Assembly: GCA_027624855.1 (NCBI GenBank)
Contig: JAQBTQ010000007.1
Location: 1 to 64,000, forward strand
Length of the DNA stretch: 64,000 bases
Direction of reading: 5' to 3'
DNA from: Bacteroidota bacterium
GTDB taxonomy: Bacteria > Bacteroidota > Bacteroidia > Flavobacteriales_D > Sanyastnellaceae
A program made the translations under genes and the position numbers. Below the pieces are notes generated by a model that was given only the letters and a program-made list of their open reading frames with translations, was not told where the DNA came from and ran no database searches. How positions within the stretch are numbered: the stretch's first letter is position 1; the number at the start of each line of letters is the position of its first letter. This document shows, piece by piece, positions 4,408 through 61,162 of the stretch.

Positions 4408-5118
4408 TTACGGCTTAAACTCCTTTGCTCCATCTAAGATGTAATTCATCTGGTAGATATCGTCGGCGTTGAGCCGGAACTTACCAGCGAATGTGAGCCG
4501 CTCATCTGTTTGGTACACCCTGGGGGATTTACCATCAAAGCGCAAATCAATCACAGATTCAGGCCCAGCTCCGCCACAAAAAAAACAATTGGCAAAAGGA
4601 TACCGGCTCAATACATAGAAGTCTTCGTCCAAGTCCACGGGAATGACGTATCCCGTGATGTACACGGATTCACTTTCCAAATTGTTCACGGTACTTCCAA
4701 AGGTGGGCTTCCAGTAATAAGCGTCCAATTCTTCGATGTAAACATCTTTGAATTCTACATCTTCTAACGTTTTCCAAGTCAGTTCGGAATACCCATCAAT
4801 GACTTCACCTGGAGCGGAGGTGGCCTCATCAATAGGAGCGGCGGTGGCCTCATCTACGGAAGATGATTCCTCGATGGTGGAGATCAATTCTGCTGATTCC
4901 TCCGTTATTTCCTCTGTTGATTCGAAGTCCGCCTCTGAAAGGCGATTCGTCGGCATCATCGAAGCCGCTTTGACCGCCGTCGATGTTCGCTCAGCTTCAA
5001 CCGATGGATGACAATAAGAACTTAGGTCCAACATGGATATGGTCAGTAACCCCAAGGCGCCTATCCACCAAACGTTCTTAAATCGAACTTTATGAAGGGG
5101 TGACTTAGTTTGATTCAT
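4408..5118 (-). CDS. DUF3299-like exported protein of an ABC operon
   Basis: This 236-residue protein has one N-terminal hydrophobic segment (WWIGALGLLTISMLDL), then an acidic, serine- and threonine-rich linker of about 80 residues, then a C-terminal domain resembling DUF3299. That domain contains VYITGYVIPVDLDEDFYVLS and the cysteine motif NCFFCGGAGPES. It is probably anchored in the inner membrane or exported. It is the last gene of a three-gene operon and its start overlaps the permease stop (ATGA). From memory, DUF3299 genes travel with FtsX-like ABC transporters, including a zinc-linked Vibrio cluster, so a metal-related envelope role is possible but not shown here. The low-complexity linker is unlike its neighbours. 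Confidence 0.75.
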   Translation of the reverse strand: MNQTKSPLHKVRFKNVWWIGALGLLTISMLDLSSYCHPSVEAERTSTAVKAASMMPTNRLSEADFESTEEITEESAELISTIEESSSVDEATAAPIDEATSAPGEVIDGYSELTWKTLEDVEFKDVYIEELDAYYWKPTFGSTVNNLESESVYITGYVIPVDLDEDFYVLSRYPFANCFFCGGAGPESVIDLRFDGKSPRVYQTDERLTFAGKFRLNADDIYQMNYILDGAKEFKP

Positions 5119-6299
5119 GTTGCGTCTGTCAATGTTCTCGAAGGATCAATTTTCATGGCGGAAATTCCAGGAATGGAAGCCGCCAAAAGCCCAACAAATA
5201 TAGCCAATCCCAAAAGCTGCCACTCTGTTGTCATCATGCCGAGTCCATCCCAGTCATAATGGAATTTATTTTCAACCAATTGTGCCAGGCCAAATAAACC
5301 AATTCGACTGATAAAGAGGCCCAAAATAGCACCACCACTGCTCAAAATTCCGCCCTCCAATAATAAAAGGAAGAGCAACCCTTTGCGCGAACCACCCATT
5401 GTTCGCAGCAATGCCAATTCGTATCGCCGTGCGAGCAGGTTGTCATAAACAGAAATGAAAATGCTGGCAAAACTGATGAACATGATCAGCACGGCAATGG
5501 CTCGAAGGGTGTTCATTCCGATGCCAAAATTTTGTGTCAATCGATTGATTTCAATCGCCGGTAATGCCACCTGCATGTTGGTTTCTCGAATGGTGTTTGG
5601 TATGGTAAGCACCGCCAGGGGGTTACGTTTCTTCAACAAAACAGCAGTAATCTCCCGATCGGCAAGTGCAATCGAGTCGCCGTGTGTTTCGTGAACCCCC
5701 CAAATGGTTTCAATGTCACATAGCAACAGCTGGTCTAATACGCTTCCGCTTTTTTCCAAAATGCCGACGACACGAAAAGTTTTGTCCATGTGGACATCAG
5801 TCTCGTCTTGCAATCCGTGGGCACTAAAAAATTCATCACCCAAACGCAAACCGGTTGTTTCAGCAACCTGTGATCCCACCACCACTTCAAAAGGTGCTTC
5901 AAATGGCACTCCTTCGGACCATTGGGCTTGATAGTGTTCGGTGTAATCCCTTGTGCTGCCTACGATGCGAAATCCACGGTAATTGTCCCCGTATGCCAAT
6001 GGTATTCCTTGGGCGATATACGGATGGCGCATGACTTTTTCAGCGTCTGCGAGTCGGATGTTTCCAGTTGGAGCATCAACATGATACACGTTGGCTAAAA
6101 TCAATTGCAAGGGGCTGCCCTTGGCACCCAATACCAAATCGATGTCTTCTATGTTTCGATCGAATGTATCTGACAGTTGTCGTTCCGTGAGCATCAGCAA
6201 GCTGACCAAGCCCACACCAAAAGCCAAAAGCACCAAGCTCAGGCCTGTTTGAAGTTTCTTCAACCCCAGATTCCGCCATGCGATGTAAAACCAATTCAT
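5115..6299 (-). CDS. FtsX/MacB-family ABC transporter permease
   Basis: This 394-residue inner-membrane protein has the FtsX/LolC layout. There is one N-terminal transmembrane helix (GLSLVLLAFGVGLVSLLML), a large periplasmic domain of roughly 230 residues, then three C-terminal helices (IAVLIMFISFASIFISVY; FLLLLEGGILSSGGAILGLF; LLGLAIFVGLLAASIPGI). Such permeases usually act mechanically on lipoproteins, envelope proteins or substrates in the periplasm rather than as classical importers. The gene overlaps the ATPase gene upstream and the DUF3299-like gene downstream by four bases each, so the three should form one complex or pathway. The substrate is unknown. Confidence 0.88.
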   Translation of the reverse strand: MNWFYIAWRNLGLKKLQTGLSLVLLAFGVGLVSLLMLTERQLSDTFDRNIEDIDLVLGAKGSPLQLILANVYHVDAPTGNIRLADAEKVMRHPYIAQGIPLAYGDNYRGFRIVGSTRDYTEHYQAQWSEGVPFEAPFEVVVGSQVAETTGLRLGDEFFSAHGLQDETDVHMDKTFRVVGILEKSGSVLDQLLLCDIETIWGVHETHGDSIALADREITAVLLKKRNPLAVLTIPNTIRETNMQVALPAIEINRLTQNFGIGMNTLRAIAVLIMFISFASIFISVYDNLLARRYELALLRTMGGSRKGLLFLLLLEGGILSSGGAILGLFISRIGLFGLAQLVENKFHYDWDGLGMMTTEWQLLGLAIFVGLLAASIPGISAMKIDPSRTLTDAT

Positions 6300-6946
6300 G
6301 ACGCAGCTGTAAGGGGGTTCAATGAGACGCGATTGGGGTATCGGTCTTTGAGCCGTTGGTCGTGTGTTACGATTACCAGTGTGGCGCCGACTTCTTGTGT
6401 TTGTTCTTCCAACAATGAAATCACGGCTTCGGTGCTTTCGTCATCGAGTGCACTTGTCGGTTCATCAGCGAGCACAATGGCCGGTTGATGAATCAACGCA
6501 CGCGCTATTCCGGCGCGCTGTTGCTCTCCAACGCTGAGATTTCTTGGGCGCTCATGCGCTTTATGGCCAATCCCTAGCTTATCGAGGAGTGTCTTTGCTT
6601 GGCTTTCATTGAATCTTTCTCCCAATAAAAAGGAGGGAATGGCAAGGTTTTCAATGACGCTGAGGCTTTGCAAAAAGTGGGATTTTTGAAAAACCAATCC
6701 AAAATGCTGTCCTCGAAATAGGTCGCGCTCTCGCTCGGAAAGGTCATTCAATGATTGGTTATTGATGAGGATGTTTCCTTTGCCTGGCTTGAGTATCCCA
6801 CACAAAAGATGCAGCAAAGTGGTCTTTCCTGATCCGGATTGCCCGAGCAATAGCAATTGTTCTCCCTTGCCACAGGCAATGTCGGGGAACGAAATCCATT
6901 CCGACTCTGTGTTGTATTGAAATCCTAATTGCTCGCAACGAATCAT
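6296..6946 (-). CDS. ABC transporter ATP-binding protein (LolD/MacB type)
   Basis: This 216-residue cytosolic ATPase of the LolD/FtsE/MacB class energises the adjacent permease. It has Walker A GQSGSGKTTL, a Q-loop in FGLVFQKSHFLQSL, signature motif LSVGEQQRAGIARAL, Walker B IVLADEPTSALD and the switch histidine in LVIVTHDQR. It is the first gene of the three-gene operon. A TAATTTCG box lies 7 bases before the start codon. The substrate of the system cannot be read from this subunit. Confidence 0.93.
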   Translation of the reverse strand: MIRCEQLGFQYNTESEWISFPDIACGKGEQLLLLGQSGSGKTTLLHLLCGILKPGKGNILINNQSLNDLSERERDLFRGQHFGLVFQKSHFLQSLSVIENLAIPSFLLGERFNESQAKTLLDKLGIGHKAHERPRNLSVGEQQRAGIARALIHQPAIVLADEPTSALDDESTEAVISLLEEQTQEVGATLVIVTHDQRLKDRYPNRVSLNPLTAAS

Positions 6947-7004: not shown

Positions 7005-7421
7005 GTGAATTTTCGTCAACGATTTCTGCGGTACGGCATTGGGGTCATCATTGGATTGTTCCTCAGTTTTTTCTTCTTCGGAGAACGGGGTTGCAACTGG
7101 ATGCCAGCGAAGCGAATTAAATCCCGTATGCAACTTGACGGGGTTCTGCCAGACGTGCAGCTGAGTTGCCTCATCGATTGTGAAGGGCTTTCACCAATTT
7201 CAATGCAAGACGTCGAGGCGTGGTTATTGGATTGCGAGGTGAATTTTTCAGCAAGCAATCCACGTCAGAATATCCCTTGCTATCATCTAGAAATGCCTGA
7301 GGAATCACCTTTCACCTCACTGCAAGTATGTTTTTTGGATTCCGTTGGACTCCTTTCTAACCCTGTGTTGCGGGATGGTCAATTTGACCGTTGCAATTGC
7401 GATGCTAATCTGAGCGAATGA
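7005..7421 (+). CDS. small membrane-anchored protein, function unknown
   Basis: This 138-residue protein has a basic N-terminus and one strong hydrophobic helix (GIGVIIGLFLSFFFFG) at about residues 11-26, followed by a soluble domain with five or so cysteines (LSCLIDCEG, LLDCEVN, IPCYHL, CNCDANLSE). It resembles small conserved hypothetical proteins that I remember in Flavobacteriales, but I cannot assign a family. The start is GTG, placed four bases after a perfect TAnnTTTG box. It is divergent from the ABC operon. Its stop lies in the loop of a terminator hairpin, and its last 17 bases overlap the convergent sugar dehydrogenase gene. Confidence 0.7.
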   Translation: MNFRQRFLRYGIGVIIGLFLSFFFFGERGCNWMPAKRIKSRMQLDGVLPDVQLSCLIDCEGLSPISMQDVEAWLLDCEVNFSASNPRQNIPCYHLEMPEESPFTSLQVCFLDSVGLLSNPVLRDGQFDRCNCDANLSE

Positions 7422-8979
7422 TGCTCAGTTTTCCGCGCAGGGCGGTGTCCTTGCCAGGAATCCATACCTCAACAATGTAAATACCGGGATTCATCCCTGT
7501 CGTGTTCCAAGTATAAGGCGATTGCTGAACGGCCAATTGGGCATTATGCACGATGCGACCACTTGATTCGGTTATTCGGATTCGATTTAAGTAGACGCCT
7601 TCCCCTGCATCCAGGATCACATCGCGTCCAATCGCTGTCGGATTTGGGCTAAACCGCAAAGGAGCCTCAAGATGACCAGTACCTCCTTGATCCGCGGGAT
7701 CGTATACCAATTTGTAGACGTTGAGGCGTGTGCACAAGTACAACTCCCCTTCATTATTCTCACTGAAGGCGAACCGTGTTTCATCCCAAGGAACAAATCC
7801 GCCAGGAACCTGAATGTCAAGTGGAGCATCAACCCATGACCCATCTGCTTGCTCCGCTAAGGACCAAAATTTCACATCATAAAATCCGCAGGCATCGGTA
7901 AAGATGTAGTTTCCATACAACGATGGGATGTCATTGCCCCGATAACGGTATCCACCAATGACTGAGCACCATCCATTGTAATGGGGGTAAGAGAAAATGG
8001 GCAATTGGAGCGTTCCATCGGGGTCACAATCGACGACTGGTTCATAGCACATAGGCCCTTCCATCAATCGCCATCCAAAATTCAATCCACCCTGAGAACT
8101 GGCAGCTTCCATGCTGATTTCTTCCCAATCGACCTCGCCAACGTCTCCAATGAATTTGTCTCCGGTAAGCCGGTCAAAACTCCATCGCCAAGGATTTCGA
8201 AAACCATAGGCCCAGATTTCGTCAAGGGCTTCATCATTCCCCACAAATGGATTGTCCGCTGGAATGGTATATGGTGCTAACCCGTGGACCTCAATCCTGA
8301 GCAATTTTCCCAGCAGCGTTTGAAGGTTTTGACCATTGCCGATGGGTCCGTGATCATCGCCTCCACTTCCCCCGCCAGTCTCACCTGTCCCGGTTCCACC
8401 ACCGTCGCCCGTGCTGATATACAAGTACCCGTCATTGGGTCCAAAATGCATTTGACCACCATTGTGACCTCGAGCGGGTTGAACGAGTTCGAGCACTTCA
8501 TACCAGGAAGCGGTATCTGCCATGGTGTGATCAGGATTGGTCCCAAAGCAAATCAATCGCTCATCGATAAACGTCCCGGTGCCATCAGGCCGATAGCCAT
8601 TGTAGATGACATAAAACAATCCGTTGTTTTCGAAATCAGGATCAAGGATGAGGTCGTTTAATCCTTGTTCACTCATGATGCCGTAATCGCAGAGGTCGAG
8701 TCCTGAAGCACTCAAATCCAAAAAGGGCTCTTCGCGGATTTCCCCGCTTTCTTCGTTGTACCACATGACCAGTCCGCTATGGCAAATGATTAAAAGATTC
8801 TTTTCATTCGCTTCATGGCTAGCTGGACGAACGGCCACTGGCCATTCTGCCGCGAATAGACGCTCTCCAACGATTGCTTCTGGAGCACCCTGCGCCATCG
8901 AAAAATCAGGCATGAATAAGGAGAGACATGCAATCAGTAAGGCATATCTGCTCAAATGGGGGGAAGAATGGGTCGGCAT
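7405..8979 (-). CDS. T9SS-secreted PQQ-dependent sugar dehydrogenase
   Basis: This is a six-bladed beta-propeller of the soluble glucose/sorbosone dehydrogenase family. Members oxidise aldose sugars with pyrroloquinoline quinone and pass electrons to an acceptor outside the cytoplasm. The motif GHNGGQMHFGPNDGYLYIS contains the catalytic histidine (about residue 172), and YGFRNPWRWSFD and GDVGEVDWEEI are also typical. A signal peptide (LLIACLSLFMPDFSMAQ) and a C-terminal T9SS type A sorting domain (RFSPNPTAIGRD to the end) predict surface display or release. I chose the ATG at 8979 (524 residues) because it precedes the signal peptide; the frame is open further upstream. It is divergent from the pentaheme cytochrome gene, 45 bases away. 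Not every member of this family binds PQQ. Confidence 0.88.
   Translation of the reverse strand: MPTHSSPHLSRYALLIACLSLFMPDFSMAQGAPEAIVGERLFAAEWPVAVRPASHEANEKNLLIICHSGLVMWYNEESGEIREEPFLDLSASGLDLCDYGIMSEQGLNDLILDPDFENNGLFYVIYNGYRPDGTGTFIDERLICFGTNPDHTMADTASWYEVLELVQPARGHNGGQMHFGPNDGYLYISTGDGGGTGTGETGGGSGGDDHGPIGNGQNLQTLLGKLLRIEVHGLAPYTIPADNPFVGNDEALDEIWAYGFRNPWRWSFDRLTGDKFIGDVGEVDWEEISMEAASSQGGLNFGWRLMEGPMCYEPVVDCDPDGTLQLPIFSYPHYNGWCSVIGGYRYRGNDIPSLYGNYIFTDACGFYDVKFWSLAEQADGSWVDAPLDIQVPGGFVPWDETRFAFSENNEGELYLCTRLNVYKLVYDPADQGGTGHLEAPLRFSPNPTAIGRDVILDAGEGVYLNRIRITESSGRIVHNAQLAVQQSPYTWNTTGMNPGIYIVEVWIPGKDTALRGKLSIIRSD
7410..7432 (+). terminator. terminator overlapping two convergent gene ends
   Basis: CTGAGC-gaatgat-GCTCAG followed by TTTT forms a 6-bp stem. 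The TGA of the upstream gene (7419-7421) sits in the loop, and the hairpin is also inside the last codons of the opposite gene. Confidence 0.65.
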
Positions 8980-8996
8980 CAACGGGCTTTGCAAGC

Positions 8997-9004
8997 TAAC
9001 TTTG
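8997..9004 (+). promoter_or_regulatory. -7 box TAACTTTG of the cytochrome gene
   Basis: This perfect TAnnTTTG lies 20 bases before the ATG at 9025. It abuts a perfect box on the other strand, together forming the palindromic core CTTTGCAAAG. No clear -33 TTG is seen. Confidence 0.6.
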
Positions 9005-9012
9005 CAAAGATA
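9005..9012 (-). promoter_or_regulatory. -7 box TATCTTTG of the sugar dehydrogenase gene
   Basis: This is a perfect TAnnTTTG on the minus strand, 25 bases before the ATG at 8979 and immediately back to back with the forward box at 8997-9004. Two polymerases could hardly use both at once. Confidence 0.6.
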
Positions 9013-9024
9013 CCAATCGAAACA

Positions 9025-10968
9025 ATGAACCGTCGGAGATTGATTGCCCTGATTTTGCCTTTGGTGGCCATTTCGGTAGGTTCCTTGATTACAGGAGCTT
9101 ATCATCCGGATCGTTTGCAGGCGAAGGATGACGATGAATGGACACTACGTCGAATGGGTGAATTGTGCACGGAAGAAGGGGTTTACTTCACAGGCTCTGG
9201 AAATTGTGTGAATTGCCATGCGCCAGATCCAGAGGGGGAAGCATTGGTGGACGAATACGGAAACTCCGTGAGCCCCGTTCAAGATTGGCAAGCTACGATG
9301 ATGGCAAATAGTGCCCGAGACCCTTTTTGGCAAGCCAAAGTGGATCATGAAGGGCTGATTAATCCTGAGCATCGGGAAGCCATTGAAAATGTCTGTACTG
9401 CCTGTCATGCTCCCCAAGGATTCCATGAGGCGCATTTGACTGGAACAGCCGGCGTGAATGGCTATACGATGAGTGACCTCATGCAAGACGAGTTAGGGTT
9501 GGATGGAGTGGGATGTACGGGCTGCCATGCCATTGATGACATTGGATTGGCCGGACGCTTCAATGGCGATTTGCCAATCAATCCTGACCACGTTGCTTGG
9601 GGCGCATTTGAGAATCCATGGGATGGTTTGATGAGTGGACAAACGGGGTTCATTCCAGCTTTTGGTGAGCACATGCGTGGGAGCGAAGTATGTGCAAGTT
9701 GCCATTCTTTGTATACGCATACCCAAGATTTAGAAGGGGAAGAAACGGGTCAGGTATTCTTTGAACAAACGACTTATCTGGAATGGGTGAATTCCGCTTA
9801 CAATGCCGAAAACGTGCAATGCCAAACGTGCCACATGCCATTGGTGGAAGGCGGAGCGATTGCAGCAACCCAACCCAATTGGCTATTTCCTCAGCGATTT
9901 GGACGTCATCATTTTGTTGGAGGCAACGCCTTCATGCTAAAATTGATGCGGGATAACGCAGTCTTACTCAATCTGAGCGCAGCCCCCTCACAATTCGATT
10001 CTACCATCAGCCGTACCATCCATTCACTGCAACGCGAAACGGCACTACTTCACGTTCGGCAGTTGGCATCCGCTCCTGAAGAATGGGTTTTTGAAGTCGA
10101 ACTTGAAAATTTGGTAGGCCATAAATTTCCCAGTGGTTATCCGGCTCGGTTGGCATTTCTGGAATTCACACTTATCGGAGAGAAGGGCGACACCCTTTTC
10201 CAAAGTGGCCGATGGACTTCCGATGTAGGAATCCATGGTCGGGATTTGGGCTACGAACCCCATTGGGATGAAATATCAGATCCTGACCAAGTTCAGATTT
10301 ATGAAATGGTATTGGGTGATGTCGCCGGACAGACCACCCAAGTTTTGGAACGGGCGGCCGTTGTTTTAAAGGATAATCGTTTGACCCCTAGAGGATTTTC
10401 CACGATGCATCCTGTGCATGATACTGTGCAGGTGGGACCCATGGCTGCATTGGATCTTGATTTCAATCGAAAGGATGGGAATGAAGGGTCTGGTACCGAC
10501 CAAATTCGATACCGCATTCCTGCTACAGGTGCAGACCACACGGTCCAAGCCTCGGTGAAATTGCATTACCAAGCGGTTCCCAAGCGTTGGGTGGAAGCAT
10601 TGTTTGAATTTTCCGATGAAAGCGAGCGAATTGCTGCGTTTGAATCCATGTATTTGGATGCGGATCGGACGCCGGTGGTCGTGGCAACAGCTTTGGGAAG
10701 GGGTTGGTCTGGCTTCGATCCATCGGTGAGCTCTTGGAAGGTTGCCCCGAACCCCGTTTCAAACGGTCAATTGATGCGGTTGATTCCTTCGAATGAAGCA
10801 CTCCCACAATCAATCATTTTATTAGACGCCCGCGGCAGGGCAATTCGCGAATTGTCAACCAACGAAGCATTTGTTGGTTACGCGGTGCAAGATTTAGCCT
10901 CAGGGGTCTATTATGTGCAATTGAATTTTGAAGAGCACAGCGAGACCATTCGCTGGGTAAAACAGTAA
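9025..10968 (+). CDS. T9SS-secreted pentaheme c-type cytochrome
   Basis: This 647-residue protein has five CxxCH haem c sites: CVNCH (61), CTACH (124), CTGCH (164), CASCH (223) and CQTCH (266). A beta-rich region follows, then a T9SS type A sorting domain over the last ~75 residues (WKVAPNPVSNGQ, then SGVYYVQLNF). The N-terminus MNRRRLIALILPLVAISVGS is a signal peptide or anchor, so I chose the ATG at 9025 rather than earlier in-frame codons. Haems are attached in the periplasm, and the sorting domain predicts export across the outer membrane by T9SS. The likely role is extracellular electron transfer or reduction, with the divergent sugar dehydrogenase as a possible donor. The exact multihaem family is not recognised. 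Confidence 0.85.
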   Translation: MNRRRLIALILPLVAISVGSLITGAYHPDRLQAKDDDEWTLRRMGELCTEEGVYFTGSGNCVNCHAPDPEGEALVDEYGNSVSPVQDWQATMMANSARDPFWQAKVDHEGLINPEHREAIENVCTACHAPQGFHEAHLTGTAGVNGYTMSDLMQDELGLDGVGCTGCHAIDDIGLAGRFNGDLPINPDHVAWGAFENPWDGLMSGQTGFIPAFGEHMRGSEVCASCHSLYTHTQDLEGEETGQVFFEQTTYLEWVNSAYNAENVQCQTCHMPLVEGGAIAATQPNWLFPQRFGRHHFVGGNAFMLKLMRDNAVLLNLSAAPSQFDSTISRTIHSLQRETALLHVRQLASAPEEWVFEVELENLVGHKFPSGYPARLAFLEFTLIGEKGDTLFQSGRWTSDVGIHGRDLGYEPHWDEISDPDQVQIYEMVLGDVAGQTTQVLERAAVVLKDNRLTPRGFSTMHPVHDTVQVGPMAALDLDFNRKDGNEGSGTDQIRYRIPATGADHTVQASVKLHYQAVPKRWVEALFEFSDESERIAAFESMYLDADRTPVVVATALGRGWSGFDPSVSSWKVAPNPVSNGQLMRLIPSNEALPQSIILLDARGRAIRELSTNEAFVGYAVQDLASGVYYVQLNFEEHSETIRWVKQ

Positions 10969-11004: not shown

Positions 11005-11060
11005 TTACCCTTTTTAGGGGATTGTTTGGTCTGCTCCTTACAGGCAATTTTGCCAGCGAA

Positions 11061-13316
11061 ATGGAAAGGAGATTCACGCGCTGCGCACCTATCATTATTG
11101 CCTCTTTTTTATTGGTTACAGGGCATGGATGGAGCCAAAAATCATTTGATGCTGATTCTTTGGGTGTGATGCTCAGTCAGTGGCACGCACTGCCAGAGGC
11201 GTCGGTCGCTGCGGTTGGTCTTGGTGCCGGTGCGCGGGGGATTGATGAAGTTCCCGGGGCCCTTCATGTCATTCGCCCAGCTGAGCTCGAACGCTATGCG
11301 TACACGGATCCGTTGCGCGTTCTCCAATCGGTAAGCGGTGTCAATATCCAAGAAGAAGATGGATTTGGTTTGAGGCCAAACATTGGACTACGTGGCTCAG
11401 GGTCTGACCGAAGTGGCAGGATTACATTGATGGAAGACGGGGTATTAATTGCTCCTGCACCTTATACGGCTCCGGCTGCCTATTATTTTCCGTCGATTGC
11501 AAGGATGAGCTCCATTGAAATTCTTAAGGGGAGTAGTCAAATAGCTTTTGGACCACAAACAGCAGGAGGCGCTATCAACATGGTTTCAGCGAACCTTGAT
11601 ACAGAAAAAACGTTGCATAGCGCGCGATTCCGAACTGAATCCAGTTCATTTGGAGGCTATCTCCAACATTTAAAAATGACGACTGGATGGGGTGGAAAAC
11701 AGGGCAATTGGGGAATGCTCATTGAGGGGCTTCAATTTGGTAGTTCAGGATTCAAAAGGCTTCCAACCGGCAGGCCAACAGGGTTTTCCAAAATGGATGG
11801 CTTGTTGAAACTTCGCTGGTCATCTTTGCCGGTGAAAGGAAGGCCCCAGTCTTTTCAGATTAAATGGGGCTATGCAGAAGAGGATAGCCATGAGACGTAC
11901 GCGGGGCTTACCCACAACGATTTCCAGATTGATCCTTATCAACGATATGGAGCATCCGAGTTAGATCGCATGATTGCCGGTCATGAGCAGCGCACCATCC
12001 GGCATGAATTGGAGGTCAATAGACGATGGAAATTGCAGACTGATGCCTACCTCAATACGTTCCAAAGGAATTGGTACAAATTGGATGGAGTGCGTGATTC
12101 TGTTGGAGATCGTCATTCACTCCTCAGCATCTATGATGAGGAATTGACGCATCTTTTAAAAGAAGAAACACCCACCGGATGGGAAATTTTGATGAAGGCG
12201 AACAACCGGAGCTATGAATCAAAAGGCATTCAGCACCGTGGCACCGTGACCTTTGATGAATCGTCAAGTCAATTGATATACGGTTTGCGTTTTCACATCG
12301 ATGAAGTCGACCGGTTTGAATGGAGGGATGGATATCAATTAGGAAACCTCGGAATGGTGCTCAACGATCCAGGAGAAAAGGGATTGGCAGGAAATCGATT
12401 GGATGGAGCAAGAGCATTCTCTGCTTTTATCCGTTCAACGTTGAATATTGGACCATTGACATTGACGCCGGGATTGCGAACGGAACAGATGCGTTTTCAT
12501 CGATACGACTATGGCAAAACGGACCTTCAACGCTCGAATGAACCAACGATTCGAACAAATGAGGTGCAGGTTTGGCTGCCGGGCGTCGGAGTCAATTTTG
12601 CTTTAGGCGAAGTACACCACTTCTTTGCTGGAGTCCATCGTGGTTTCATCCCTCCCGGGAGTTCTCCGGGTACCCGGCCAGAATCCAGCATGAATATAGA
12701 ATTGGGGTATCGTTGGGGAACGTCACGTTGGAGTGGGCAAATGGTGGGATTCCGCAATGAATATCAGGACTTGCTTGGCTCTGACCTTACGGCGAACGGT
12801 GGCACGGGATCTGGGGAAATGTTCAATGGGGGTTCGGCACGAACATGGGGAATTGAGTTGGAATGTGCAGCGGAATTGTTGCCGAACCAAAGCAAATTAG
12901 CGATGCCTCTTCGGTTGTCTTATACGTACACTCGTGCCAGATTTACGTCGGATTTTGTGAGCGATTGGGATGCGTGGAATCAGGTTTCAGACGGAGATTT
13001 CTTGCCCTATTTGGCGCCTCACCAGGGGAGCATTCAATGGTCGGTTGTTTCAGATAAATCCGCTTTGGAATTCAATGGGCGATACGCTTCTGCAATGCGA
13101 ACGAAAGCCGGTCAGGAACGGATCGCGGACTCGGATGCCACGGATGTGAGTGCATTGCTTGACGTGGTCTTTCGCCGAGAATTTAATTCGAAAATAGAGT
13201 CATATATCGGAGTGAATAATGTGTTCAATTCCGCAACCATTGTGGCCATGCGACCAGCAGGCTTGCGCCCGAATATGCCGAGACTCGTTCGAATCGGTGT
13301 CAACCTTAGCCTATAG
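11061..13316 (+). CDS. TonB-dependent outer-membrane receptor, FecA-like
   Basis: This 751-residue protein has a signal peptide (IIIASFLLVTGHGWSQ), a plug domain (GIDEVPGALHVIRPAELERY; SGVNIQEEDGFGLRPNIGLR; GSSQIAFGPQTAGGAINMVS) and a 22-strand barrel ending in the aromatic-rich C-terminal strand (PNMPRLVRIGVNLSL). The plug closely resembles the ferric dicitrate receptor FecA family as found in Bacteroidota, so the probable substrate is a ferric chelate. Uptake would be powered by a TonB such as that at 38.65 kb. It lacks the carboxypeptidase-like N-terminal domain typical of SusC proteins. The start at 11061 is chosen because it precedes the signal peptide; a TTG or ATG further upstream is less likely. 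A 17-bp palindrome lies upstream. Confidence 0.9.
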   Translation: MERRFTRCAPIIIASFLLVTGHGWSQKSFDADSLGVMLSQWHALPEASVAAVGLGAGARGIDEVPGALHVIRPAELERYAYTDPLRVLQSVSGVNIQEEDGFGLRPNIGLRGSGSDRSGRITLMEDGVLIAPAPYTAPAAYYFPSIARMSSIEILKGSSQIAFGPQTAGGAINMVSANLDTEKTLHSARFRTESSSFGGYLQHLKMTTGWGGKQGNWGMLIEGLQFGSSGFKRLPTGRPTGFSKMDGLLKLRWSSLPVKGRPQSFQIKWGYAEEDSHETYAGLTHNDFQIDPYQRYGASELDRMIAGHEQRTIRHELEVNRRWKLQTDAYLNTFQRNWYKLDGVRDSVGDRHSLLSIYDEELTHLLKEETPTGWEILMKANNRSYESKGIQHRGTVTFDESSSQLIYGLRFHIDEVDRFEWRDGYQLGNLGMVLNDPGEKGLAGNRLDGARAFSAFIRSTLNIGPLTLTPGLRTEQMRFHRYDYGKTDLQRSNEPTIRTNEVQVWLPGVGVNFALGEVHHFFAGVHRGFIPPGSSPGTRPESSMNIELGYRWGTSRWSGQMVGFRNEYQDLLGSDLTANGGTGSGEMFNGGSARTWGIELECAAELLPNQSKLAMPLRLSYTYTRARFTSDFVSDWDAWNQVSDGDFLPYLAPHQGSIQWSVVSDKSALEFNGRYASAMRTKAGQERIADSDATDVSALLDVVFRREFNSKIESYIGVNNVFNSATIVAMRPAGLRPNMPRLVRIGVNLSL

Positions 13317-53186: not shown

Positions 53187-54224
53187 TCAGAAAACAGGGC
53201 AAGGCAAGTATCGAGGAGTCGCGGAAGGCTTCTTCTGGTAAGTTTTCCAATTGTATGACAATACAATTTCATGACTTCCGCCAGTTGTTGACAACCCAAG
53301 TCGATTCAAGGTGATGTCATAACTGTATCCGATTTTCCAGTTTTCAGTACCGTATCCGAAGATTGCGCTAACTGCGTCCACATCCGTTCCTCCTTCAATC
53401 GTATGTCCGAAGGGCAATCCCTGGTACCACAATCCAAAACTCAAGGGTTTGGTATCATAGTAAATTCCGAGGTCCAATTGATCGAATGGACCCTGGGCCA
53501 TGTAGTTGAAGGCCACGATGAGGTCGCCATGATGTCGATCCCGCATGTAATCTTGAATCGGCATTCTCCAACCCCCGTGAATGGAAGTCTTGATATCCAT
53601 TGGGTCGATGTAAGTGGGGTTTAAGCTTTCATTTGGATTGTTGAGGTGATCGAAAGACACTCCTAACCAATTGTATTTACCCGAAAGCAAGAATCCGGTC
53701 GCAAAGTCAAAATAATGACGGGAAACACTCGGCCGATCCTCGATGGTTGAAACCTGAGGACCTCGGATCAATTGATCGCCAAAAGTCAGTTGTTGCATAT
53801 CGATGGATCGATTGCCAAAAGCCCCTTGAAGTGCAGGGCGCAAACGCCAGCCGCCACCCAATGGTATTTCATAAGCAAACTGTCCCGCGATGCGCGTGGT
53901 GCTCAAGCCACCAGCTCCAGCTTCTTCTTGCGTCATCAAAATGCCAAATCCGCTGTTGAGGTTGCTGTTGTACCAATCAGCTGCAACATGCCAACCCGTA
54001 TAGGAACCAGGCATCGATGCCCATTGATTTCTATAAACCGTAGCGAGGCGAGCGTCGTCCATGGAACCAGCAAAGGCTGGGTTGATGCTTGTTGGGATTG
54101 CGTTGTATTGGGTGTACCGCAAATCTTGAGACCATGCTTGCGCACTGCATAGGCCAATGGCCATGGTCAATATGGTAATCGCTTTCATAGCGGTGGTATT
54201 ATTCAAGTTATTCATTTGGTTCAT
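53187..54224 (-). CDS. PorP/SprF-family T9SS membrane protein
   Basis: This 345-residue outer-membrane barrel of the PorP/SprF family has a signal peptide (ITILTMAIGLCSAQAWSQ). The family hallmark is the start of the mature protein, DLRYTQYNAIPTSINPAFAG, followed by barrel strands including YNWLGVSFDHLNNPNES and the C-terminal SHEIVLSYNWKTY. In Flavobacterium johnsoniae, SprF is needed to secrete or attach the adhesin SprB. Here the gene overlaps the stop of a giant PKD adhesin by four bases, so it probably serves that cargo. An internal ATG at 54188 could be the true start. Confidence 0.92.
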   Translation of the reverse strand: MNQMNNLNNTTAMKAITILTMAIGLCSAQAWSQDLRYTQYNAIPTSINPAFAGSMDDARLATVYRNQWASMPGSYTGWHVAADWYNSNLNSGFGILMTQEEAGAGGLSTTRIAGQFAYEIPLGGGWRLRPALQGAFGNRSIDMQQLTFGDQLIRGPQVSTIEDRPSVSRHYFDFATGFLLSGKYNWLGVSFDHLNNPNESLNPTYIDPMDIKTSIHGGWRMPIQDYMRDRHHGDLIVAFNYMAQGPFDQLDLGIYYDTKPLSFGLWYQGLPFGHTIEGGTDVDAVSAIFGYGTENWKIGYSYDITLNRLGLSTTGGSHEIVLSYNWKTYQKKPSATPRYLPCPVF

Positions 54225-57200
54225 TTGATCAGGGTCACATCACCCGCTTGGATTGTACGGTAACCATTGCTAAATGTTGCCACTGCTTTCCAAGCATAGA
54301 CATCTTGGCGAACGATTTGCCCTTGGAAATAGCCATCCCAACCGATGTAGGGATCGGTAGATCGGAACAGTAATTCGCCCCATTTATTGAAAATCACGAG
54401 TTCGTATTCAACGATTCCGGAGTGGTGGGGATGGAAAACATCGTTGTCCAATGCCGCTGGATCGTAGTAACCTCCGTTAGAACCTCCAGTGTTTGGTGTG
54501 AAGGCAGTCGGGAATTCCATGAATCCACCAGCAATAGCCTGCACGGCATTTTCCATCACATACGTTGTCGGACAATTGAAGTCATTGTTTGCAGTCAATG
54601 TCACCGTGTACGATCCGGGTTCTGTGTAGAAATGTACAGGGTTCATTTCTGAACTGGTCGTACCATCTCCAAAGTCCCAATGGAACTCCGTCGCATCGAT
54701 ATCAGACAAGTTGACGAAGTCTACAGGCTGATCGGGAACGATGACCTGAGATGGGCTATGAACAAATGCAGCAGAGGCGGATGGGAACACTTCGACAGCA
54801 CCGTAATGCACCACTTGTTCTTCCTGACCCTCATGACCGATTACGGTGAGTGAAACGTGGTACACTCCAGGTCGCGTGAATTCATGAGTCGGGGATTCTT
54901 CAGAGGTCATCACGTCATCACCGAAATCCCAGATGTATTGAGCCCCATGATTCGAGTTGTTTTCAAATTCCACCGTCAATGGCGCACATCCTGATCCACT
55001 TCCTGTGAAGCTTGCTACAGGGTGCGGAGACAAAATGGTAATCTGTTCGGTGTGAGCATCTGCACAGAAACCATTATCTACCAACAACGTGATGTTGTAC
55101 GTTCCCCACGAATTGTAGGTGTGGAAGATGGGTTGATCTGATGCAACCTCGTCACCGTCACCAAAACTCCAGTATTGGACAGCACTCTCTGCCGCGACAC
55201 TGGAATTGTTGATTCCGACGGTCGTATTAGGATAAGTTTGAATCGCTGGACTCACGCTGAATTGAGCATGAGGAGTGGCATATACATCCACACCGATGGA
55301 AAGCGTATCTGCACAACCGTAAGCGCTCATAGCAATCAATTCCATGTGGTACGTCACATCTTCATCCGTCGTATTTAAGAAGGTGTGTACTGGATTTTCT
55401 TCATTCGAAGGCGCAGAACCGTCATTGAAGTTCCAGATGAACGCTGCAGCGCCTTCAGACTGGTTGATGATCTCTGCTTCTACAGGAGAACACCCTTCAG
55501 TAACCACATCGAACTGAGCGTTCAAGTAGGGGCCGACTTCAAATTCGACCTCATCGGTCGCTGAACATCCGTGATCATTCTGAACAACAATCGCAGTGGT
55601 GTAGGTAATCAATTCGCTGGTAGGGTTGAAGAACGTCTTCGTGTGAATCGAATCTTGATTCAAACCGAATTCACCATTTCCGTAGTTCCACTCAACCACC
55701 TCATGGCCTTCACTGCCATTCACGAATGTCACGTCGACAGGATAGCACCCCTCCAAACTTTCAATGCTAAGGTCGGCTGTGGGCACGCCCCATACAGTTA
55801 CGGTCTGCTGAGTGGTATCCGCGCATCCAAATGCGCTGGTCGCAATCAACTCTATTGCAAAAGATTCATTCTCAGTGGACGTTGCTTCAAAGAGGTGAAC
55901 AGGCGCTTGCTCAGCAGAGGTCGTCCCATCACCGAAATTCCAAGCAAACTGGCCATCTGCATTGATGGAAGTGTTTTCAAATTGTGCCTCGAGCGGTGAA
56001 CAAACAGCTGCAGGAGTCACGAATGATGCTGTCACTGCTGGGAAAACCGTGTGGGTTGAAGAAGCCGTGGCATCGCAACCGTTTGCTGACGTAGCAGACA
56101 ATTCGATTGCCAATGGCATTGCATCAGCGCCTTCATTTACTGTATTCAAAATAATATTCGCGTCGGGATTGGTCAATGTTTCTGAACCATTCAACGTTAA
56201 GTTGATCGTTTCAGCGAGTTCAGCGCTGTGCGAGACCATCCATTCTTCACCAGAACAAGTCGTTTCAGAAGAAAGGCTCAAGGCCAAAACCGGAACGGGA
56301 TGAACCGTCACGTCAAACTCAAGAGCGTCACTGCAGCCGTATTGTGAAATGGCTTCTACGCTCATCGCAAAGGTTGCGTCTTCATTGTCGTCGCCAGCAA
56401 ACTGGAAATCCAATAGATTTCCGCTTCCTGCAGTCGTTCCATCGATGGTCCAATTGATTTGTTCCGTTGGAGTTCCTGTGTAAATGAATGAAGTATTCAA
56501 TGGTGCACAACCCTCCGTCAAACCTTCCCAAGAAGCTACGATTTCAGGCATGACCGTTACCGATTTTTCTTGTGTATCGACACATCCCAATGCATGGGTG
56601 GTTGTCAATGAAATGGTGTACTCTGCCAATTCAGATTCGCCATTAAAGATGTAAGCATGTGCTTCGGAAGGATCAGAACTTGACGTCCCGTCACCATAGG
56701 TCCATTGGAAGTCATCACCGTTGATGCTATTGTTGAATAATTCAACTTCAAAGGGAGCGCAGCCGGCCTCAGCAGACAACTCGAAGATGGCTTGAGGTTG
56801 AGGAAGGATTTCGACTTGTGCAGAGGCATTTCCAACGCAACCGAATGCGTTACTTCCTTCAAATGAAACCTCACTGGTCAACAATTCGTCGGAAGCGTTA
56901 TTCCAAGTGTGTTCTGGCGTCAATTCGTTCGACATCGTACCATCACCGAAAGTCCACAATGCGTCAACTGCATTTGACATGGCCGGCATGGTCAATGTCA
57001 AAGGCGAGCATCCTTCTGCGACTTCCAATTCCAGATCGAAAGTTGGAGTTGGGCTCACGGAGATAGTGAGGTTCGCCTCGTCGGTGCATCCCAAGTTATC
57101 GATGGCCATCAACGTCACATTGTACTCGCTGATTGCGTTTTGATCATTGGCTGTGAACGTGTGCTCAACTTGTGCTCCATTGTTCACTTCTCCGGGAACG

Positions 57201-60200
57201 GGAATTGAAGTGTCATTGAAATTCCAGATGTACACATCGCCATTTTCGCTCATGTTATTGAACGTTGTGCCAAATGGTTCACAACCTTCGGTTTCATTTG
57301 CTGTGAACGATGCCACAGGTTGTGGTCGGATGTGAACCGTAGCTTGAGCAGCACCAACACATCCATTCAACGTTTCGCCGCTAAAGGTCACCACAGCGCT
57401 CATCAATTCACTGGTAGAATTGACCCATGCGTGCTGAGGAGCTTGTCCACTTGCTGTTGCTCCATCTCCAAAGTCCCAGGTGATGTTTGTTCCGCCTGGA
57501 ATGGTAGGAAGAGTCAATTCAAGTGGTGAACAAACACTATCGGTTGGCAAATTCAATGAGAAATCAGCTGCTGGGAAGGCGATCACTTCGCGCGTCACGC
57601 TGCTGCTGCAACCCAATTCATCGATGGCAGTCAGTGACACCTCAAACGCCGTGTTCGTTGCTTCAGCAACAAACGTTGCATTGGGGTTTTCGCTGGTGGC
57701 CGTTGAACCGTTATTGAAGTCCCAAACAAAAGAGTCGGCCTGAGTGCTAAGGTTATTGAACTGCACAGCCAAGGGTGAGCATCCTTCGACCACATTCGCA
57801 GCAAAATCTGCTGTAGGTTGTGGCTTGATGTAGACGGTTGAGGAGGCAGTGCCGATGCAGCCATTTGCTGTTTGAGCAACAAATGAAACAGTAGCAGCCA
57901 ACAACCCTTCAGTGTCATTATTCCAGGTGTGCGTAGGATTCTGTCCCACCGCGGTCGTCCCATCGCCAAAATCCCACTGGATGTTTTGAGCACCTGCGAT
58001 GGTTGGCATCGTTAATACCAATGGCGAACAAACGGTGTCAGCAGTGAGCGACAATTCAAAATCTGCTGCAGGAAATACCGTAAGTTGCTTGGAAGTCACG
58101 TCAGAACAACCGAGATCGTCATGAGCGGTCAGCGTAACGTCGTAAACAGTCGTTTCATTGGTGGCTTCGAATGCATGGGTCGGGTTCGTGCTGTGGTCAG
58201 TCGATCCATCTCCAAAGTCCCAATCATAAGAATCGGCCAATGCACTTTCATTGTTAAACTGACTCACCAAAGGATTGCAACCTGCGTCGTAATTCACAGA
58301 AAAGTCTGCAATCGGTTGTGGCTTAATGTGGACTTCAGTCTCTGAAGTGCCTACGCAACCCATAGCCGTTTCGGCAGTCAAAGTGACCGTGGCGGTCATT
58401 AATTCACCCGTGTTGTTATTCCATGTATGGGTTGGCGTGGATTCAGTAGAAGTGGTTCCATCACCAAAATTCCATTGGACGTTTTGGGCACCTTCAAACT
58501 CTGGCATGGTCAAAACCAATGGAGAGCAAACAGAATCATTACTCAAATTCAAGGCATACTCCGCCGCTGCAAATACTTCAATCTGCTGTGAGAAGGTGTC
58601 TTCACATCCCAAGGCGTGGGTCGCCGTCAACGTCACGGAATATTCCGTGTCAACGCCTGAAGTGGTGAATGAATGCGTGGTTTCCGTTCCGATGGCGGTG
58701 TTACCGTCACCAAATGACCAAGTCAATTGATCAGCCAGAGAACTGGAACTCACAAAGTTGGATTCCAATGGCTCACAACCATTTAAAACATCCGCATAAA
58801 ACGCTGCAGTAGGTTGAGGCTTGATGTGAATCAAATCCACAGCAAATCCATCACAACCGTAAGCGGTTTCTGCTGACAACGTCACGATGTACGAATCCAA
58901 TGCATCCGAATCATTGGCCCATGTATGGAATGGAGTCGCTTCAGTGGAAGTGGTTCCATCTCCAAAATTCCACTGAAAATTTTGTGCGCCTTCAATGGCA
59001 GGCATACTCATTTCCAGGGGCGAGCAAACGGATTCAACACCGAGATCCAAGACAAAATCTGCTGCCGGGTAGACCGTCACTTCAAGTGAATCGGTATCGG
59101 TACAACCGAGGTCATCAATTGCCGTTAACGTGATGGTAAAATTCTCTGGTTCAGCACCTGAGGCATAAAACGCTACTGCGGCAGTGGGACCATCGTCAGA
59201 GATTCCGTTTCCGAAATCCCAGATGTATGAGTCTGCATCGCTGCTGATGTTTTCGAGATTGCAAGCCAACGGCTCGCATCCTTCAGTTGCATCAGAGGAA
59301 AATTCAGCCACAGGTTGTGGACGAACGTAAACCGTTTCAGTATGCGAATCGATGCAACCGAAAACGGAAACTCCCGTGAAGGTGATCGATGATCCCAACA
59401 ATCCGCCATTGGTGTTTTCCAAAGTGATCGAGGGTGTTTGCTCGTTGCTTGTGTTGCCTCCTCCAAAATTCCAAGACAAAGAGTTCACTCCTTCCATGTA
59501 AGGCATGGTCAATTCCAGAGGAGAACAAGCGGTGTCATTGGGCAAATCAAATGTGAAATCGGCTTGAGGATATACCTGCAATTGGGCGGCCGTCGTGTCA
59601 TGGCAACCAAATGGAGATAAGGCCACAAGTTCGACGGTTTGATTTTGAATGGTGTTACTCGTGTTTTCGAGCGTACCATCCCAATCGGCAGTGGATCCAA
59701 CGAGTACGTCATTCGCATACCATTCATAGGCATTCGCTCCTTGGGATTGATTCGCAATTCCCAATGTTAAAGGGGCGCAACCAGCAGAAACTGCCGGCTG
59801 AATTTGCGCAATGGCTCGAGGGAATGATTGAACGATCACTTCGTCGCTCGCGGTGCATCCCGCTGTTGAAGTAGCCACGACGGTTGCGGTGTGCACGTCA
59901 CTTTCATTCAAAGCAGTTTCGATGACAGCATTAACCGTTTCACCAGCGTACAGCTGTCCTTCGATGTTCCATTCGAATTCCGCCGCCAAAGAACCTGTTG
60001 CCTCAAAATCAACTTCGAGTGGAGAACATCCGGTCAACACGTTAGCGCTGGCCTCAACGGAAGGAAGGGGGTTGACTTCAATCAACTGAGATGTTGAAGC
60101 AGAGCATTCGGGAGTGGTGACCGTCAAACTCACGTTGTAGTCTCCGGTAAATGCATAGTCGTTTGTTGGATTCGACTCGTAGCTGATTGAGCCGTCTCCA

Positions 60201-61162
60201 AATTGCCAATACCATCCAGTAATGTCAGAGCTGTAGTGAATGGTTGACTCATCTGTAAATTCAGTGGTCTCTCCAATGCACGTGCCGTTGAAAGCAAAAT
60301 CAGCTACAGGTTGGTGGTGCACCGTCACAAATTGTTGTGATGTTGCTTGGCAACCGTTCACTCCAGTCACTGCGACTGAAATGGGGTGGTTACCAGGATT
60401 GTTGAACGTAATGGGGTCAAGCGTAGTTCCTACCTGAAAGGTGGGACTTGGCATGAAGGACCAAACGTAGAGGTATGAATTGGGTGCTGAAACATCTCCA
60501 GATACCGTCAAACTTCCGCAACCCTCCGTAGCTGAAAGGTTCATATCAATTACAGGCTTTGGCAAAACGGTCACCTCGATGCTCGAAGTGTCTGTGCAAG
60601 CCCCATTGGTGCCTGCATATTGGATAACACTTTGAATGGTGTATTGACCCGGGTTTTGAAAAGTGAAGCTCACATGCCCAGTTGAGGTATTTAAGAAATT
60701 CGGATTGACCCCAAAATTCCATGAATACTGAACGCCAGTTGCTTCTTGATGAAACTGAATGGAGTTGCCCTGGCAAACGCTTTGTGAGCTGCTCCAAAAA
60801 TCACTCACTGGAGGGCTACTGAAATAATGGCCTTCAATGCTGCATGAACCGTCAGCTTCAGAAAGTGTAACGGTGTACGAAGAAGCATCTCCAGCAAAGG
60901 TGTGCTCAACAGCAGGATCTCCTGGATTGAACGCTCCAACTGACTCCAACGCACTTCCATCACCCCAGTCAATAACCAAATTGGTCCAACCGGATGAAGT
61001 TTCAATGCTCAGGATTTCTGAACCTGTGTCGCAATTATGCCACGTCGGGTTTGAAGTGGCAAAACCTTCGTTATCAAGTACTTCGGGGCACTGTGAAAAG
61101 GCAATTCCCGGCATGATCATGCCGAGAACGATTGCTAATGAAATGAAATTTAAGCGGATCAT
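54221..61162 (-). CDS. giant PKD-repeat adhesin with gliding-type (type B) T9SS domain
   Basis: This 2,313-residue surface protein has a signal peptide (ISLAIVLGMIMPGIAFSQ) and about 25 immunoglobulin-like PKD repeats of 80-95 residues. Each has a C-S/A/E-P-L start and a WNFGDGTTS-type motif. The C-terminus (FMEFPTAFTPNTGGSNGGYY; VIFNKWGELLFRSTDPYIGW; QDVYAWKAVATFSNGY) is the gliding-motility-associated type B sorting domain. It is predicted to be secreted by T9SS and to act as an adhesin or surface filament, similar in plan to SprB. Between about 57.0 and 59.5 kb pairs of repeats form a larger unit of about 498 bases. It is co-transcribed with the SprF-like gene. Confidence 0.93.
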   Translation of the reverse strand: MIRLNFISLAIVLGMIMPGIAFSQCPEVLDNEGFATSNPTWHNCDTGSEILSIETSSGWTNLVIDWGDGSALESVGAFNPGDPAVEHTFAGDASSYTVTLSEADGSCSIEGHYFSSPPVSDFWSSSQSVCQGNSIQFHQEATGVQYSWNFGVNPNFLNTSTGHVSFTFQNPGQYTIQSVIQYAGTNGACTDTSSIEVTVLPKPVIDMNLSATEGCGSLTVSGDVSAPNSYLYVWSFMPSPTFQVGTTLDPITFNNPGNHPISVAVTGVNGCQATSQQFVTVHHQPVADFAFNGTCIGETTEFTDESTIHYSSDITGWYWQFGDGSISYESNPTNDYAFTGDYNVSLTVTTPECSASTSQLIEVNPLPSVEASANVLTGCSPLEVDFEATGSLAAEFEWNIEGQLYAGETVNAVIETALNESDVHTATVVATSTAGCTASDEVIVQSFPRAIAQIQPAVSAGCAPLTLGIANQSQGANAYEWYANDVLVGSTADWDGTLENTSNTIQNQTVELVALSPFGCHDTTAAQLQVYPQADFTFDLPNDTACSPLELTMPYMEGVNSLSWNFGGGNTSNEQTPSITLENTNGGLLGSSITFTGVSVFGCIDSHTETVYVRPQPVAEFSSDATEGCEPLACNLENISSDADSYIWDFGNGISDDGPTAAVAFYASGAEPENFTITLTAIDDLGCTDTDSLEVTVYPAADFVLDLGVESVCSPLEMSMPAIEGAQNFQWNFGDGTTSTEATPFHTWANDSDALDSYIVTLSAETAYGCDGFAVDLIHIKPQPTAAFYADVLNGCEPLESNFVSSSSLADQLTWSFGDGNTAIGTETTHSFTTSGVDTEYSVTLTATHALGCEDTFSQQIEVFAAAEYALNLSNDSVCSPLVLTMPEFEGAQNVQWNFGDGTTSTESTPTHTWNNNTGELMTATVTLTAETAMGCVGTSETEVHIKPQPIADFSVNYDAGCNPLVSQFNNESALADSYDWDFGDGSTDHSTNPTHAFEATNETTVYDVTLTAHDDLGCSDVTSKQLTVFPAADFELSLTADTVCSPLVLTMPTIAGAQNIQWDFGDGTTAVGQNPTHTWNNDTEGLLAATVSFVAQTANGCIGTASSTVYIKPQPTADFAANVVEGCSPLAVQFNNLSTQADSFVWDFNNGSTATSENPNATFVAEATNTAFEVSLTAIDELGCSSSVTREVIAFPAADFSLNLPTDSVCSPLELTLPTIPGGTNITWDFGDGATASGQAPQHAWVNSTSELMSAVVTFSGETLNGCVGAAQATVHIRPQPVASFTANETEGCEPFGTTFNNMSENGDVYIWNFNDTSIPVPGEVNNGAQVEHTFTANDQNAISEYNVTLMAIDNLGCTDEANLTISVSPTPTFDLELEVAEGCSPLTLTMPAMSNAVDALWTFGDGTMSNELTPEHTWNNASDELLTSEVSFEGSNAFGCVGNASAQVEILPQPQAIFELSAEAGCAPFEVELFNNSINGDDFQWTYGDGTSSSDPSEAHAYIFNGESELAEYTISLTTTHALGCVDTQEKSVTVMPEIVASWEGLTEGCAPLNTSFIYTGTPTEQINWTIDGTTAGSGNLLDFQFAGDDNEDATFAMSVEAISQYGCSDALEFDVTVHPVPVLALSLSSETTCSGEEWMVSHSAELAETINLTLNGSETLTNPDANIILNTVNEGADAMPLAIELSATSANGCDATASSTHTVFPAVTASFVTPAAVCSPLEAQFENTSINADGQFAWNFGDGTTSAEQAPVHLFEATSTENESFAIELIATSAFGCADTTQQTVTVWGVPTADLSIESLEGCYPVDVTFVNGSEGHEVVEWNYGNGEFGLNQDSIHTKTFFNPTSELITYTTAIVVQNDHGCSATDEVEFEVGPYLNAQFDVVTEGCSPVEAEIINQSEGAAAFIWNFNDGSAPSNEENPVHTFLNTTDEDVTYHMELIAMSAYGCADTLSIGVDVYATPHAQFSVSPAIQTYPNTTVGINNSSVAAESAVQYWSFGDGDEVASDQPIFHTYNSWGTYNITLLVDNGFCADAHTEQITILSPHPVASFTGSGSGCAPLTVEFENNSNHGAQYIWDFGDDVMTSEESPTHEFTRPGVYHVSLTVIGHEGQEEQVVHYGAVEVFPSASAAFVHSPSQVIVPDQPVDFVNLSDIDATEFHWDFGDGTTSSEMNPVHFYTEPGSYTVTLTANNDFNCPTTYVMENAVQAIAGGFMEFPTAFTPNTGGSNGGYYDPAALDNDVFHPHHSGIVEYELVIFNKWGELLFRSTDPYIGWDGYFQGQIVRQDVYAWKAVATFSNGYRTIQAGDVTLIK
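57006..60021. repeat. tandem coding repeats of about 498 bases
   Basis: Equivalent points of the C-S-P-L segments occur at 57006, 57528, 58026, 58524, 59022 and 59523, that is spacings of 522, 498, 498, 498 and 501 bases. Each unit encodes two PKD domains. The outer limits are approximate because the similarity fades. Confidence 0.75.

Follow-up and report, generated by a model that had tools for sequence, protein, structure and literature searches.

A divergent gene pair encoding a GSDH-family protein and a pentahaem cytochrome, with predicted type IX export of both, in a Flavobacteriales family

The glucose/sorbosone dehydrogenase (GSDH) family includes the pyrroloquinoline quinone (PQQ) enzymes Asd (3a9g, 2g8s) and sGDH (1c9u). 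They share a catalytic His and an Arg-Asn pair facing the PQQ quinone, roles that are given in extracts of PMC6881789 and PMC6881810. A fungal extracellular dehydrogenase of the same fold class, the AA12 enzyme CcPDH (a PQQ pyranose dehydrogenase), has its haem partner, an AA8 cytochrome b, fused to it (PMC6881789, in part). Among multihaem cytochromes, Thermochromatium tepidum c552, Geobacter ExtKL and the cable-bacteria proteins sPHC and lPHC carry five CxxCH motifs followed by an immunoglobulin-like (Ig-like) region. Portions of PMC11976967 propose a pentahaem family that includes ExtKL, report that it is structurally homologous to T. tepidum c552, and cite a suggestion linking this c552 with the archaeal nanowire AvECN. 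The MtrCAB/OmcA porin-cytochrome conduits also place multihaem c-type cytochromes at the cell surface. Here we describe a divergent gene pair that encodes a GSDH-family protein, called the dehydrogenase below, and a pentahaem c-type cytochrome. It lies in a 64 kb stretch of contig JAQBTQ010000007.1 (the window), part of a 2.29 Mb draft genome that is 96.63% complete and belongs to the Flavobacteriales family Sanyastnellaceae.

The locus resembles each of these systems in part. The dehydrogenase shares with Asd and sGDH the family, the catalytic His and the PQQ Arg-Asn pair, but it has no evident PQQ carboxylate arginines, its nearest solved relative is HHIP, and it bears a tail for the type IX secretion system (T9SS). 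Compared with 3a9g it also has a Gly-rich insert of about 17 residues. The cytochrome has the arrangement of the c552/ExtKL family, but with a T9SS tail added. It shares with MtrCAB/OmcA a marginal MtrC/MtrF domain match, whereas it has five haems instead of ten, ends in a T9SS tail, and comes from a genome with no MtrB/PioB match, for which the control was weak. CcPDH is one fused chain and its haem is of b type, whereas this locus has two genes, five c haems and T9SS tails. The fungal fusion counts in favor of a redox partnership between the two products.

We give about an even chance to the explanation that the pair is a surface dehydrogenase-cytochrome electron-transfer module, co-regulated, co-inherited and exported by T9SS. 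Its parts belong to known families, and the co-inheritance of a T9SS-tagged pentahaem cytochrome with a T9SS-tagged GSDH protein appears to be a new combination. Among the matches listed in a search of the open full-text literature, none named a T9SS-exported multihaem cytochrome or a cytochrome-GSDH combination, and the main text of PMC11475568, which surveys multihaem cytochromes of the outer membrane, does not contain "type IX", "T9SS" or "Bacteroid". If true, the explanation would add to this family a redox module with components delivered to the cell surface by the type IX system. It would also give a testable role to T9SS-tagged "dehydrogenases" in bacteria where no gene for PQQ synthesis was found, and it raises the question of where electrons released outside the cell go.

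Conservation and joint loss of the pair

A preliminary description of this DNA had reported two divergent genes with 45 bases between their start codons, and both open reading frames are indeed found, starting at 8979 and 9025. It had also proposed a gene-neighborhood check in related genomes. The places matched by dehydrogenase and cytochrome searches were compared over the same 114 genomes of the family, and the pair proved not to be peculiar to this genome: it is present in 28 of them, of which 19 belong to the own genus and 9 to five further genera. Cytochromes of this kind are nearly universal in the family (107 of the 114 have a match at E <= 0.001, which is weak in a few). The 17 pair loci that were laid out have largely the same genes on their flanks, and in two genomes of one genus two tandem cytochromes stand beside the dehydrogenase.

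The own genus comprises 22 genomes, of which 19 carry both genes, 3 carry neither and none carries one alone. In the three pair-less genomes (G051, G054 and G055) the flanking genes are in order on one contig. G054 retains the TonB receptor and a 53-codon remnant of the dehydrogenase 3′ end. G051 and G055 have 171 and 61 bases, respectively, between the flanking matches, with no receptor match there. Since the deletion junctions differ, it is likely that two or more loss events occurred, each removing both genes. The pair is also missing at this place in G048, outside the own genus, where the flank on one side is rearranged. Judged from gene content in this genus, the two genes are a co-inherited unit, kept or lost together.

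The gap between the genes was scored with TAnnTTTG, the consensus of the Bacteroidota -7 box. It contains two such boxes back to back, forming a putative bidirectional promoter core (Table 1). The 64 kb contain no second perfect site of this kind, and 100 Markov shuffles gave an average of 0.01. Among the 28 pairs the site is perfect at 21, has one mismatch at 4 and fails at 3 (G052, G042 and G043); each of the 25 sites sits in the gap and is the sole such site of the fetched locus (2.5–5 kb). These counts are not independent, because the 28 genomes are related. Twelve stretches from nine g21 genomes, in which the dehydrogenase has another partner, offer a comparison, and ten of them have no site within one mismatch. 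The two single-mismatch sites lie just upstream of the dehydrogenase in G101 and far from it in G104. A sigma-70 promoter scan of positions 8700–9300 found none. The pair is apparently co-regulated, both genes being switched on together.

The two proteins and their predicted export signals

The cytochrome carries the five CxxCH motifs first described for it (C61, C124, C164, C223 and C266), and their cysteines and histidines are invariant across 70 long cytochrome rows. Other histidines are also conserved, namely 216 (60/70), 295, 366 and 413 (70/70 each) and 462 (66/70), and these five would be enough to give every haem a second ligand. A structure model of the protein (mean predicted local distance difference test score (pLDDT) 71.4, predicted template-modelling score 0.73) matches T. 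tepidum c552 (5ze8) in Foldseek at 6.8e-10, with a Z score of 17.5 and a root-mean-square deviation of 3.9 over 333 residues. MtrC (6qyc) is among the Foldseek matches only at E 4.8e-3. The sequence profile matches 5ze8 (E 2.1e-9), the selenoprotein MccSep (9wt8) and a T9SS tail. The VIA-align matches listed below 5ze8 are Ig-like domains and T9SS tails, and further relatives of the haem region are possible.

The ExtKL model NF040886 is matched at E <= 0.01 by 15 of 17 cytochrome members, and the window cytochrome scores 19.7 bits against it, below the equivalog cut-off of 250. Two Pfam matches are marginal: MtrC/MtrF domains II/IV (PF22113; 31.8 bits, cut-off 30) and Cytochrom_C552 (25.3, cut-off 24.1). 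The OmcA/MtrC decahaem class is defined by ten haems, and the cytochrome has five CxxCH. On its modelled fold, the protein stands nearest to the pentahaem family of T. tepidum c552 and ExtKL.

The dehydrogenase is a member of Pfam GSDH (PF07995), with 94.7 bits against a cut-off of 25. His172, Arg261 and Asn262 align with the catalytic His and the PQQ Arg-Asn pair of the PQQ enzyme 3a9g, and these residues as well as Arg347 are invariant in all 20 aligned dehydrogenase rows. In a hand alignment to an sGDH motif, Arg347 may stand for Lys377. The structure model of the dehydrogenase was poor (mean pLDDT 49.2, 9 sequences) and was not used.

T9SS type A tails were assessed with TIGR04183, which has a cut-off of 23 bits. 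Such tails had been ascribed to both proteins. That of the cytochrome is clear (34.2 bits), while that of the dehydrogenase is borderline, scoring 20.8 bits as a protein, below the cut-off, and 25.0 in the genome scan. The model is matched at E <= 0.01 by 16 of 17 aligned cytochrome homologues and 17 of 20 aligned dehydrogenase homologues. The C-terminus of the cytochrome model (566/570–647) matches the solved T9SS tails 8glk_D, 8qb1_A and PorZ (5m11). The N-termini of both proteins, judged by eye, are signal-peptide-like. The own genome encodes a c-type cytochrome assembly protein, and the translocon protein SprA is encoded in the window. As it carries a T9SS tail, the cytochrome should leave the cell, and both proteins would reach the cell surface by the type IX system. 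The further statement that this system takes the place of a porin-cytochrome conduit was weakly tested: MtrB/PioB has no match in the own genome, and the control matched 1 of 14 genomes, none over the cut-off.

Table 1. Coordinates of the gene pair and of neighboring features in the window
Feature	Position	Strand	Layout or remark	Basis
GSDH-family (glucose/sorbosone dehydrogenase-like) protein, 524 aa	7405..8979	-	N-terminal signal-like segment; C-terminal T9SS type A tail	Pfam PF07995, TIGR04183, invariant residues
Pentahaem c-type cytochrome, 647 aa	9025..10968	+	Signal-like segment, five CxxCH, Ig-like region, T9SS type A tail (~570-647)	CxxCH motifs, TIGR04183, fold match 5ze8
Putative bidirectional promoter core	8997..9012	.	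One box faces each gene	Back-to-back -7 boxes TAACTTTG and CAAAGATA; whole site TAACTTTGCAAAGATA
Small conserved protein, no family	7005..7421	+	At dehydrogenase 3′ end	
FecA-like TonB-dependent receptor	11022..13316	+	Optional neighbor outside the core pair	Pfam Plug, TonB_dep_Rec; FecA 1kmo 2.4e-12
T9SS translocon SprA, 2498 aa	30281..37777			

Possible function and its alternatives

In the electron-transfer explanation, haem would be attached to the cytochrome in the periplasm, where both products would mature, and the type IX system would then export both to the cell surface. At this site the GSDH-type protein, with PQQ scavenged from its surroundings, would oxidise an extracellular sugar or a compound like it and hand the electrons to the pentahaem cytochrome. 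Candidates for the external acceptor to which the cytochrome would pass them on are metals, small oxidants and other redox proteins of the cell surface. PQQ occupancy, the substrate, the contact between the proteins, the electron transfer and the final acceptor are what we infer. PqqU-bearing Bacteroidota have been reported to lack PQQ biosynthesis genes, and they would rely on scavenging (PMC12124388, in part). The preliminary description had proposed such a surface redox pair. The neighborhood in 28 of the 114 genomes, the active-site residues, the T9SS tails and SprA agree with it; the g21 dehydrogenases, which have no adjoining cytochrome, do not.

Several observations weigh against this explanation. 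The dehydrogenase scores 32.2 bits with TIGR03606, the glucose/sorbosone PQQ dehydrogenase subfamily, and does not reach the cut-off of 434.55. HHIP is its closest solved relative by sequence, at E 3.2e-35, the best PQQ enzyme reaching 1.2e-17. Its alignment shows no evident counterparts of the PQQ arginines that sGDH and Asd have near the C-terminus (e.g. Arg408), and its C-terminal half aligned to HHIP only. For these last two reasons PQQ binding is plausible rather than firmer, and the PQQ-binding residues on which the preliminary description relied are kept in part, with the catalytic His and the Arg-Asn pair present and the C-terminal arginines not evident. PqqC (TIGR02111) was found in 0 of the 114 family genomes, a result that leaves its absence unproven, since the control was silent in all 14. 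Eleven g21 genomes have a GSDH protein 53–65% identical (best piece) with no adjoining cytochrome; ten scanned loci give no cytochrome match, and the cytochrome of G110 is on a different contig. At g21 loci L078–L081 the GSDH gene is divergent from a TonB receptor gene, with a DUF4249 gene next in line (Pfam, at L078). In a cytochrome neighborhood sample that is not random, 50 of 72 rows have no GSDH as immediate neighbor. Lastly, one of the 28 dehydrogenases, that of G062, has one in-frame stop.

The nearness of HHIP and the C-terminal arginines that are not evident would also suit a dehydrogenase-like protein without PQQ, which would act, like animal HHIP, as a binding or scaffold module positioning the cytochrome at the surface, the latter protein being the sole redox part. 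HHIP is not known to bind PQQ. Cytochromes elsewhere adjoin another exported repeat protein, CRTAC1-like with FG-GAP/UnbV_ASPIC (15 of 72 rows), and all three of these neighbors scanned for a T9SS tail (L132, L155 and L162) are positive. We hold the scaffold role to be unlikely, however, for HHIP has lost the Arg-Asn pair that the dehydrogenase keeps, His172 and Arg261-Asn262 being the same in every aligned row, and the Pfam GSDH score is well above its cut-off. It is a little less likely again that the cytochrome is an extracellular reductase (e.g. of ferric iron, or of nitrogen or oxygen species) and that the pair serves iron acquisition or detoxification. In that case the FecA-like receptor would import the product, and the donor could be the dehydrogenase or something else. 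The marginal Cytochrom_C552 and MtrC/MtrF matches are consistent with a reductase, as is the receptor gene located after that of the cytochrome at 5 of the 8 own-genus loci that were laid out, and pentahaem relatives are discussed as potentially catalytic in portions of PMC11976967. This receptor, however, was not seen at 12 of the 17 pairs examined (at one of which the contig ends) and survives the loss of the pair in G054, while the conserved histidines 216, 295, 366, 413 and 462 could leave no haem without a second ligand.

The differing deletion junctions, each removing both genes, and the conserved promoter-like core make it improbable that two unrelated T9SS cargo genes are adjacent and co-inherited by chance, even though T9SS tails are common in the genome (66 of 72 TIGR04183 matches exceed the cut-off), single deletions can remove neighbors jointly, and g21 separates the two. 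Chance is further opposed by two other GSDH-cytochrome neighborhoods with different GSDH types, in a setting of 1–5 GSDH matches per genome (six genomes). In genus g4 (G014 and G015; Pfam scores 241.7 and 245.3 bits) an Asd-like GSDH with a T9SS tail faces a cytochrome of another clade. In G123, from another family, a third type of GSDH (176.6 bits), also with a T9SS tail and the sole GSDH match in that genome, lies directly upstream of a cytochrome on the same strand. What these loci and the CRTAC1-like ones have in common may be that a pentahaem cytochrome is accompanied by an exported partner. In a bolder version, T9SS-exported pentahaem cytochromes, which are related to a family that has been linked with archaeal cytochrome nanowires, would assemble in Flavobacteriales into a conducting layer or filament on the cell surface. 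Exchangeable exported partners, the GSDH protein here and CRTAC1-like proteins elsewhere, would charge it without an outer-membrane cytochrome conduit; we regard this version as very doubtful.

Neighboring genes and other settings of the cytochrome

The cytochrome tree has 74 rows, 19 of which come from the 17 of 28 pair genomes that entered it. All 19 rows of the paired cytochrome clade adjoin a GSDH. When the GSDH label is compared with the CRTAC rows and ungrouped rows are disregarded, starred branches force at least three changes, and the three could be one gain and two losses. The tree still labels L172 as CRTAC, and rows L093 and L104 are long-branched and of uncertain placement. The CRTAC labels of L172, an L-type lectin, and of L133, which both score ~99 bits, were dropped from the 15 CRTAC1-adjoining rows, which are L117, L120, L122, L124, L128, L131, L132, L147, L149, L155, L158, L162, L165, L169 and L173. 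Some of these loci hold apparent cbb3-oxidase assembly genes, labelled by size and similarity. The own genome also has a cytochrome paralogue, 44% identical, which with its group occupies another conserved setting.

In L104, from an Acidobacteria metagenome-assembled genome, a distant relative with five CxxCH, counted by eye, lies among FG-GAP/UnbV proteins (7587–9197 and 11448–13235). Because of this case, the cytochrome-FG-GAP/UnbV neighborhood may be older than Bacteroidota. In L160 (G126) a 761-residue open frame with eight CxxCH, the second frame after the pentahaem cytochrome, is located just past it.

The TonB-dependent receptor beside the cytochrome has FecA as its only solved relative at E <= 1e-5. 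It was found at 5 of the 17 pairs, all five in the own genus. Import of PQQ by this receptor was considered and not adopted, because the receptor is FecA-like and patchy.

On the other side of the pair, the small protein at the dehydrogenase 3′ end has no Pfam or NCBIfam match. The place of its gene is conserved, and it is retained in the pair-less G051, G054 and G055. Beyond it, window positions 4408–6946 hold ATP-binding cassette (ABC) transporter genes, a LolD/FtsE-like ATPase and a permease, both below the NCBIfam cut-offs, accompanied by a 236-residue protein without a family. The order of these genes beside the pair is conserved, and they are retained where the pair is lost. Elsewhere in the window, an open frame of 2313 codons spans positions 54221–61162.

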